A stretch of 64,000 nucleotides of DNA. Source: Alloyangia pacifica (lineage in GTDB: Bacteria; Pseudomonadota; Alphaproteobacteria; Rhodobacterales; Rhodobacteraceae). A program made the translations under genes and the position numbers. This document shows positions 49,750-51,314 of this stretch, in pieces (position 1 is the first letter of the stretch; every line of letters begins with the position of its first letter). The notes beneath the pieces are model-generated. The model had not been told where the DNA came from. It searched no databases and worked only from the letters and a program-made list of their open reading frames with translations. The stretch lies in assembly GCF_020524285.1 (NCBI RefSeq), contig NZ_JAIVKX010000013.1:62001-126000 (forward strand). The letters run 5' to 3'.

Positions 49750-49798
49750 AGGCAAGGAAAAAAGACGCCGCAACGCAGCAACTTACCGGATTTTGCCG

Positions 49799-50494
49799 TC
49801 AGATTGAGACTTTTTCGAGCAGCGCCTCTCGATCGATCTGCCCGGCCTGTCCGGAAAGCGACACAGCGCCGCGCGTGACGGCGTAGAAACTGTCGGCCAG
49901 TCCCCAGGTGAAATCGAAATACTGCTCGACCAACACCACCGCCATGTCGCCCTGATCGCGCAGCTGCGCGATGACCCGGCCGATCTGCTGGATGATGTTG
50001 GGCTGGATGCCTTCCGTCGGCTCGTCGAGCAGCAGCACGCGCGGCCGGGTGATCAGCGCGCGGGCGATGGCAAGCTGCTGCTGCTGCCCGCCCGAAAGAT
50101 CGCCGCCGCGGCGCTGCAGGAAGTCCTTGAGGATGGGGAAGAGCTCGAAGATATGCGCCGGCACGCCGCGCTCGGAACGATCGAGGCAGGCAAAGCCGGA
50201 CTCGAGGTTCTCCTGCACGGTCATCAGCGGAAAGATCTCGCGGCCCTGCGGCACGTAGGCGATGCCCGCCCGCGCCGCCTGATAGGCGTTGAGGTGCTCC
50301 AGCGGTGTTCCGTCGAGGCTGATCGTTCCGCTGGAGTAGGGGTGGCGCCCGGCGATGGCCTTGAGCAGCGAGGTCTTGCCCACGCCGTTGGTGCCCATCA
50401 CCGCGGTGACCTTGCCCGGCTCCGCCGCGAGGCTGATGCCGTGGAGGATCTGGCTTTGCCCGTAGTGCAGGGTAAGGTTGTCGACTTTCAGCAT
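49799..50494 (-). CDS. urtE: urea ABC transporter ATP-binding protein UrtE (231 aa)
   Basis: A LivF-like ATPase with Walker A GTNGVGKTS, signature LSGGQQQQLAIAR and Walker B VLLLDEPTEGIQPNIIQQI; the TEGIQPNI sequence is characteristic of UrtE. Its ATG lies within the ribosome-loading zone of the 29-codon ORF at 50488 (overlap ATGCTGA), so it may be translated by coupling. The UrtDE pair drives urea import in many nitrogen-limited bacteria. A weak T-rich terminator (about 49758-49763) follows. Confidence 0.95.
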   Translation of the reverse strand: MLKVDNLTLHYGQSQILHGISLAAEPGKVTAVMGTNGVGKTSLLKAIAGRHPYSSGTISLDGTPLEHLNAYQAARAGIAYVPQGREIFPLMTVQENLESGFACLDRSERGVPAHIFELFPILKDFLQRRGGDLSGGQQQQLAIARALITRPRVLLLDEPTEGIQPNIIQQIGRVIAQLRDQGDMAVVLVEQYFDFTWGLADSFYAVTRGAVSLSGQAGQIDREALLEKVSI

Positions 50495-50577
50495 GGCATC
50501 TCACTCCATCCGCAAATCTCTTCGAAGAGATTTGCAACGTCCTTCGAAGGACGTTGCAGTTCCGCGTGTGTCTTCAT
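50488..50577 (-). CDS. 29-codon ORF bridging urtD and urtE
   Basis: The ORF starts with ATG at 50577 overlapping the urtD stop (ATGA) and stops at 50488, overlapping the first two codons of urtE. Its sequence (MKTHAELQRPSKDVANLFEE) is encoded through the double palindrome at 50512-50557. It fills exactly the gap between the two ATPase genes, so translation of urtE could be coupled to it. No family is known. Confidence 0.45.
   Translation of the reverse strand: MKTHAELQRPSKDVANLFEEICGWSEMPC
50512..50557. repeat. two overlapping perfect 24-bp palindromes in the urtD-urtE gap
   Basis: 50512-50535 (GCAAATCTCTTC...GATTTGC, centre TTCGAA) and 50534-50557 (GCAACGTCCTTC...ACGTTGC, centre TTCGAA) are each perfectly self-complementary and share two bases. 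Both can fold as 12-bp hairpins in the transcript. Confidence 0.85.
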
Positions 50578-51314
50578 CGTCCGAGGTAGACGTCGATGAC
50601 GTCCTGGTTGGCGGTCACGTGATCCAGCGAGCCCTCGGCCAGCACTGAGCCCTCGCAGAGCACCGTCACCTTGCAATCGAGCCGCCGCACGAATTCCATG
50701 TCGTGCTCGACCACCACCACCGCGTGTTTCTGCGCCGCCCGGCGCAGGAGGTCGGTGGTGTGCTCGCGCTCGGCCGGCGTCATGCCCGCGGCGGGCTCGT
50801 CGACCAGCAGCAAGCGCGGATCCTGCGCCAGCAGCATGCCGATTTCGAGCCATTGCTTCTGCCCGTGGCTGAGCTCGCCCGAGACCCGCCCGAGCTGGTC
50901 GGTCAGCCCGATCTCGGCGGCGATCTCCTCGATCCTCTCCGCCCCGGCCCTGGTCTTGTTGTAGAACAGGACGTCGAACGGCCCGCGCTTGTTCTTCAGC
51001 GCCATGGCGAGGTTCTCGCGCACGGTCTGCGCCTCGAAGACCGTGGGTTTCTGGAACTTGCGCCCGACACCCGAGCGGGCGATCTGGCTTTCCGACATCT
51101 TCAGCAACGAGACCGATTTCTCGCCCCAGAGCACGCGGCCTTCGTCGGGGCGGGTCTTGCCGGTAATGATGTCCATGAAGGTGGTCTTGCCGGCGCCGTT
51201 GGGGCCGATAATGGCCCGCAGCTCGGGCTCGCCGATGCGGAAGCTGAGGTTGTTGATCGCCTTGAACCCGTCGAAGCTGACGGAGACGCCGGACAATTCG
51301 AGCAGGGTCTTCAT
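50574..51314 (-). CDS. urtD: urea ABC transporter ATP-binding protein UrtD (246 aa)
   Basis: A LivG-like ATPase with Walker A GPNGAGKTT (about 39-47), the FQKPTVFEAQTVRENL segment typical of UrtD, signature ELSHGQKQWLEIG, Walker B LLLVDEPAAGMTPAE, and H-loop VEHDMEF. It overlaps urtC's stop (ATGA) at the 5' end and leads into the 29-codon ORF at its 3' end. Confidence 0.95.
   Translation of the reverse strand: MKTLLELSGVSVSFDGFKAINNLSFRIGEPELRAIIGPNGAGKTTFMDIITGKTRPDEGRVLWGEKSVSLLKMSESQIARSGVGRKFQKPTVFEAQTVRENLAMALKNKRGPFDVLFYNKTRAGAERIEEIAAEIGLTDQLGRVSGELSHGQKQWLEIGMLLAQDPRLLLVDEPAAGMTPAEREHTTDLLRRAAQKHAVVVVEHDMEFVRRLDCKVTVLCEGSVLAEGSLDHVTANQDVIDVYLGR

Follow-up and report, generated by a model that had tools for sequence, protein, structure and literature searches.

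The window, by which we mean the whole 64,000-nucleotide stretch of DNA that was analysed, contains on its minus strand the genes urtD and urtE, and the identities of their products as urea ABC transporter ATP-binding proteins are secure (Table 1). An earlier note on this DNA described two 24-bp perfect palindromes between the genes, each centred on TTCGAA and overlapping by two bases. Both palindromes are present, but the second is 26 bp in length, and the two-base overlap is true of the 24-mers (the second of these being 50534–50557) but becomes 3 bp at full lengths. They are the longest loop-free palindromes of the window, with arms of 13 and 12, where only 0.1 palindromes with an arm of at least 11 are expected per simulated window (first-order Markov). 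The element begins 16 nt past the urtD stop. As a 47-nt RNA the double palindrome folds at −23.9 kcal/mol (z = −6.2; none of 200 shuffles equals it), but in a context of 111 nt the z score is just −1.65. At the Rfam gathering score tRNA alone is matched in the whole window, with nothing at the double palindrome, and no intrinsic terminator was called there; between 49500 and 51500 two sites were called, both at 49766–49782.

The gap is also spanned on the minus strand by a short linker ORF with the product MKTHAELQRPSKDVANLFEEICGWSEMPC, followed by a stop codon. The earlier note had this ORF start within the urtD stop, which is confirmed, its ATG overlapping the TGA as ATGA, and end within the urtE start; the stop codon does lie just inside urtE, but at 50490–50488, 4–7 nt into the gene and outside its ATG.

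Table 1 Features of the urtD–urtE junction
Feature	Position	Strand	Details
urtD	50574..51314	-	Urea ABC transporter ATP-binding protein; TIGR03411, 365.7 bits (cut-off 304.1)
urtE	49799..50494	-	Urea ABC transporter ATP-binding protein; TIGR03410, 329.1 bits (cut-off 285.8)
Linker ORF	50488..50577	-	29 codons, reads 50577–50488, urtD stop to urtE start
ATGA	50574..50577	-	Linker start codon overlapping the urtD TGA
ATGCTGA	50488..50494	-	urtE start and linker stop
GGAG	50504..50507	-	Likely Shine–Dalgarno site of urtE, read from the sequence; between element and urtE
Palindrome 1	50512..50535	.	24 bp, perfect, centre TTCGAA
Palindrome 2	50533..50558	.	26 bp, perfect, centre TTCGAA; TGC common to palindrome 1
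Dispersed-repeat core	50513..50556	.	44 bp, CAA-n5-TTCGAA-n5-TTGCAA-n5-TTCGAA-n5-TTG

A dispersed double-palindrome repeat

The double palindrome in the urt gap is one copy of a rigid 46-bp dispersed repeat with palindrome centres 22 bp apart, in which TTGCAA and TTCGAA alternate at every 11 bp; beyond the 44-bp core the copies have in common only a G-rich left and a C-rich right flank. The urt-specific control element proposed in the earlier note is not upheld, and seven of 20 Salipiger genomes have a urtD–urtE gap of 9–18 nt without the element. We use this genus name because two of the genomes (G001 and G004) match Salipiger thiooxidans and S. pentaromativorans exactly over the urtDE stretch. 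A sequence search of the element's own genome (G000) gave 49 rows, almost all of which match the palindromes only. The covariance model gave 62 rows at E ≤ 1, merged by hand to 33 places, with 150 of 2705 candidates scored and some of the places being single or decayed palindromes. Of these places 31 are intergenic, and the two within predicted genes are the weakest matches. The repeat is matched in 14 of the 41 genomes of the relatives set, including 12 of the 20 Salipiger genomes, and in none of the 16 from outside the family. In a family-wide sample of almost one genome per genus it occurs in at least 51 of 295 genomes, a lower bound since 21 candidates were scored in each. A free-arm pattern that fixes just CAA, TTCGAA, TTGCAA and TTG gave 7–30 matches in each of ten of the 20 Salipiger genomes, compared with none for the reversed control pattern. 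No plasmid copies were found at E ≤ 1e-3 with two copies as queries. The family seems to be new, as no description of it was found in a literature search that reached a minority of subscription papers. We note that G003 and G004 have palindromes (L149, L376, L389 and L399) with TTGCAA in place of TTCGAA at the centre, as if the hexamers can swap roles.

Among the 166 copies with both neighbours called, the distance to an upstream stop is at most 15 nt for 118 and at most 20 nt for 130. This set overlaps with a first one, in which 78 of 109 copies lie within 15 nt; random intergenic placements of the same 109 gave 25% within 15 nt and 30% within 20 nt. In this set 51 copies are between convergent genes and seven between divergent genes, each orientation accounting for about a quarter of the control placements. 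In the later set the 15-nt limit takes in 21 of 33 copies; three of its 34 loci (L406, L407 and L410) repeat earlier copies and are included in this figure, but are outside the hand-made linker counts for that set given below. Copies that fall in a predicted gene or lack a called neighbour on one side or both were left out (two of 168, and one of 34 in the later set), as were five of the 33 places in G000 that have no exact intergenic 46-mer and, in the first count, seven of 20 palindrome matches from the mixed-genera set. Gene starts were those of our own simple gene caller.

The two halves of each palindrome change together. The 15 double copies from G000 align over 46 columns with no gaps and show two-sided changes in nine of 18 stem pairs, values reached by none of 500 shuffles. 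Arms combine freely, 49 arm types occurring in 63 combinations among 110 copies, and among free-arm pattern copies the arm pairs are complementary in 298 of 300 cases in G006 and 89 of 100 in G009. At orthologous sites where the element is kept, arms change in pairs: 247 two-sided against 102 one-sided changes were counted in 2844 stem cells from 158 site pairs, which have sites in common and are not independent. Outside G000 one-sided changes are undercounted, since the copies there were chosen for high scores. In G000 all 18 stem pairs are intact in just eight of 28 copies, and we make no claim that mismatched intermediates are rare, since the copies from other genomes came from top-scoring matches. 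The copies in G009 and G010 look decayed, G010 having 13 weaker model rows and no pattern matches; in copy number and arm complementarity G006, G013 and G005 rank high.

Non-Watson–Crick cells read on the strand of the upstream gene comprise 15 G-U and 12 A-C in the larger set and nine and two in a smaller strict set; with strata that are too small, these counts give no sign of selection on single-stranded RNA. An outer stem closing both hairpins was considered and rejected, as the G-rich flanks before and C-rich flanks after the element pair no better than permuted flanks. The maintenance of the repeat as two perfect palindromes would reflect either selection on the hairpins or the copying of one arm from the other.

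The urtD–urtE gap and linker reading frames

The earlier note had proposed comparing the gap between urt operons. Thirteen of the 20 Salipiger genomes have a long urtD–urtE gap (79 nt in five, 73 nt in five, and 70, 46 and 100 nt) and the remaining seven a short one. The element was found in ten of the 20, as a strong match in eight and a weak one in two (G003 and G008), but not in three long and seven short gaps; the doublets of G011, G013 and G006 have different stems. Of the three long gaps without a model match, G015 keeps a remnant recognizable by eye and G004 and G018 have no clear element. The G015 gap (L134) is 33 nt shorter than that of its sister species, which leaves GAGAGATTTGC with the linker frame open. 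This comparison of sequences shows the element to be dispensable at urt, given the seven species that have a short gap without it.

Each of the 13 long gaps, of five different lengths, measures 1 mod 3. The linker frame is stop-free in every one, whereas stops interrupt the two remaining frames in four of the 13 each. ATGA is present at the urtD stop in seven of seven clade A genomes, and the six other long-gap Salipiger genomes have ATG or GTG two bases past the stop. Taken alone the mod-3 result is weak, by our own estimate about 1/27 to 1/81 if length changed independently perhaps three or four times. No general mod-3 rule is seen for urtD–urtE gaps in the 76 scorable of 80 named loci, which divide 29/25/22 between the three classes. 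Among these 80 named urtE loci the sole match to the repeat is in Maritimibacter alkaliphilus (L055, 4908–4954), where a copy lies behind urtE between convergent genes. Three outgroups have a 3-nt urtD–urtE gap. None of the element-free urt gaps, of 9–18 nt in Salipiger and 3 nt in the outgroups, is an ATGA overlap, so that a route through duplication of such an overlap is not shown at urt.

The coupling ORF of the earlier note is partly borne out, by the consistent frame at urt and by the recurrence of linkers at other loci and in other genera. At co-directional copies in short gaps there is recurrently an ORF whose start codon overlaps the upstream stop as ATGA or GTGA and which extends to the start of the next gene, often at ATGA again. 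We counted linkers in 85 distinct co-directional copies with gaps of 46–260 nt, from the discovery and later sets, requiring an end within −15 to +20 nt of the next start. Where a start overlaps the upstream stop, 17 of 22 ORFs end at the start of the next gene and five do not reach it, compared with eight of 63 for the same frame with no overlapping start (p = 5e-8). In gaps under 100 nt the counts are 12 of 13 with an overlapping start and three of 13 without (p = 5e-4; discovery copies included). Half of the gaps under 100 nt (13 of 26) have an overlapping start, compared with nine of 59 longer ones. A prediction was written before 34 further loci were opened, the predicted class combining an overlapping start with a gap no longer than 100 nt. 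Linkers were found in both new copies of this class, and also in all three of the new copies in which a start overlaps but the gap is longer; the predicted rarity of overlapping starts in long gaps held only in part (three of 13 new co-directional copies with gaps over 100 nt had one). The grammar of the element leaves room for few stops, and open frames are therefore favoured by chance: 136 of 168 elements are stop-free in all six frames, against 85% in a column-resampled null.

Two further pairs of loci may be mentioned. In two genera the element precedes a gene (at L237 and L415) that is presumably rpoC-like, as its N-terminus looks to us like that of RpoC; the 30-residue N-terminal piece has no family match. 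At L354 and L421, also from two genera, the element and a linker precede genes with similar N-termini, and the L354 gene scores as an iron–sulphur subunit, below the cut-offs of the 25 families listed.

Empty sites and likeness to known systems

At two loci relatives without the repeat show the junction in a direct form. The two genes at L275 overlap directly by ATGA in 14 of 20 genomes (counted by eye), and in G011 the element lies between two copies of CGCATGAGCC for a net gain of 86 bp; G003 has an element-like palindrome, G006, G013 and G004 have a different insert, and G008 is hard to read. At L280 a direct ATGA overlap is found in eight of 20 genomes (by eye) and other gaps in seven. Here the element lies between two copies of ATGACCG in G013 and G006 and between two ATGA in G004, is present without ATGA in G008 and is left as a remnant in G003. 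The filled sites thus carry duplications of 10 nt (L275) and 7 nt (L280). Their extra DNA is longer than the common core, with 12–21 nt on each side that bear no likeness to other copies, and a simple fixed-end transposon would not account for such flanks. In G006, G013 and G004 (L373–L375) a second repeat-like motif, TTCATCTTTCTCCAAATAC with its variants, is present at the L275 junction just upstream of the second gene, and a motif of this type lies further upstream in G014, G005, G015 and G008 (L361, L363, L364 and L372, in the tails of the upstream gene).

A link to RAYT-type Y1 transposases was rejected on the basis of PF01797, the sole profile used. This profile has no match in G000, is found in three of 20 Salipiger genomes and is absent from most carriers of the element, being present among 12 tested carriers only in G008 and in two of 15 carriers from other genera. 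We infer that the repeat spreads by a factor other than a recognizable RAYT.

Caulobacter CIR elements have been linked to DNA methylation sites, GANTC being the CcrM site; a CIR/CcrM link was rejected here, as GANTC is found in none of the 168 elements. The CIRs, which PMC2759123 mentions, are alphaproteobacterial intergenic repeats like the present one. As far as the cited sections describe them (PMC3116915, PMC12306157 and PMC8049555), REPs and REPINs, the latter being REP doublets moved by RAYTs, resemble our repeat in being short, many-copy, extragenic and hairpin-forming, in having a doublet unit and compensatory changes, and in lying in part just behind stops. The present repeat differs in that its loop-free perfect palindromes are fused through a shared GC, with a rigid 22-bp centre spacing and no spacer between units, and in that most copies have no GTAG or CGTC flank tag (GTAG/CTAC is found in the 8-nt flanks of 15 of 168 copies and CGTC/GACG in 12) and most tested carriers no Y1 transposase. 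The repeat is therefore REP-like in place and shape, and many-copy and extragenic as REPs are, but falls outside that class in transposase, tag and doublet layout. ERIC and RU elements are likewise small intergenic repeats with a mobile look and a capacity to be read as ORFs, but according to the cited part of PMC2759123 they measure 103–168 bp and fuse to other ORFs, whereas here 46 bp lie in a separate linker ORF that is joined to the gene on either side by stop/start overlaps. The ends of the linkers use the ATGA/TGATG overlaps familiar from termination–reinitiation coupling (cited parts of PMC6728339 and PMC10666635); the difference is that a mini-ORF through the repeat bridges the genes, which overlap directly at two sites in repeat-free relatives.

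Interpretation of the junction

In our view, the best reading of these comparisons is that a REP-like repeat lies behind urtD and that the linker ORF would restore coupling to urtE; the linkers themselves recur, and to the reading as a whole we assign a probability of roughly 0.7. The copy just behind the urtD stop widens the junction, which is tight in element-free relatives, to 79 nt, and a gap of this length, if untranslated, should weaken or abolish termination–reinitiation coupling. The stop-free linker ORF, beginning in the ATGA overlap and ending a few nucleotides within urtE, would provide a path across it: ribosomes leaving urtD could reinitiate at the linker ATG, translation of the linker could melt both hairpins, and the ribosomes could then reach urtE with its own putative GGAG. 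In the cited part of PMC10666635, reinitiation in E. coli and Haloferax is down by 80% or more, or lost, at 22–38 nt, so that a 79-nt gap would need either a relay or its own initiation, for which the GGAG is available. An earlier study described in the same source found coupling across 150–850 nt, and if this applies a linker or relay would be unnecessary; coupling may in any case not be needed, as urtE has the SD-like GGAG. In E. coli, REPs that lie no more than 15 nt from a stop have been reported to stall ribosomes (Liang 2015, as related in the cited part of PMC12306157).

The same features could tentatively be explained by an ordinary REP-like repeat whose linkers are the product of ATGA-junction duplication on insertion and of the scarcity of stops, with no selection for coupling. 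The two sites that have duplicated junctions and empty ATGA counterparts agree with this, as does the number of elements that are stop-free in six frames relative to the null, but duplication alone predicts that about one-third of frames would connect, whereas 12 of the 13 overlapping-start copies under 100 nt reach the next start despite differing gap lengths, and the five lengths of the long urt gaps are all 1 mod 3. We also consider it possible, although doubtful, that the element is a bidirectional pair of 3′-end hairpins which ends or stabilizes transcripts and would act as an attenuator or stabilizer between urtD and urtE. Its frequency between convergent genes (79 of 168 copies) and close behind stops, the folding of five tested copies at −17.5 to −23.9 kcal/mol and the covariation of the stems are consistent with such a role; the absence of a called terminator-like site at the urt element, the near-equal counts of G-U and A-C cells on the upstream gene's strand in the larger set (15 and 12; the strict set gave nine and two) and the occurrence of copies inside operons argue against it. 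That the hairpin is a urt-specific regulator setting the UrtD:UrtE ratio, as the earlier note suggested, seems very improbable: a strong doublet does occupy the urt gap in eight of 20 Salipiger genomes, with differing stems in three, but the repeat unit is found at some 30 other places in G000, and at urt it is weak in two genomes, undetected in three long gaps and missing from seven short ones.

Returning to the reading of a repeat bridged by a linker, a wider and more speculative extension of it would be that a trans-acting process specific to this lineage, perhaps one in which a hairpin serves as template for copying one arm from the other, maintains perfect double palindromes in a family-wide repeat with no known transposase, and that the repeat is tolerated in operon junctions because translated mini-ORFs relay ribosomes from gene to gene. 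The repeat forms a rigid, transposase-orphan double-palindrome family of the Rhodobacteraceae/Roseobacteraceae in which arms change in pairs at the same site, and this opens the origin of compensatory change in short palindromes to testing. A further suggestion is that operons may survive small insertions by way of a relay mini-ORF which overlaps its neighbours, stop to start, at either end; such frames may escape annotation because they are so short.
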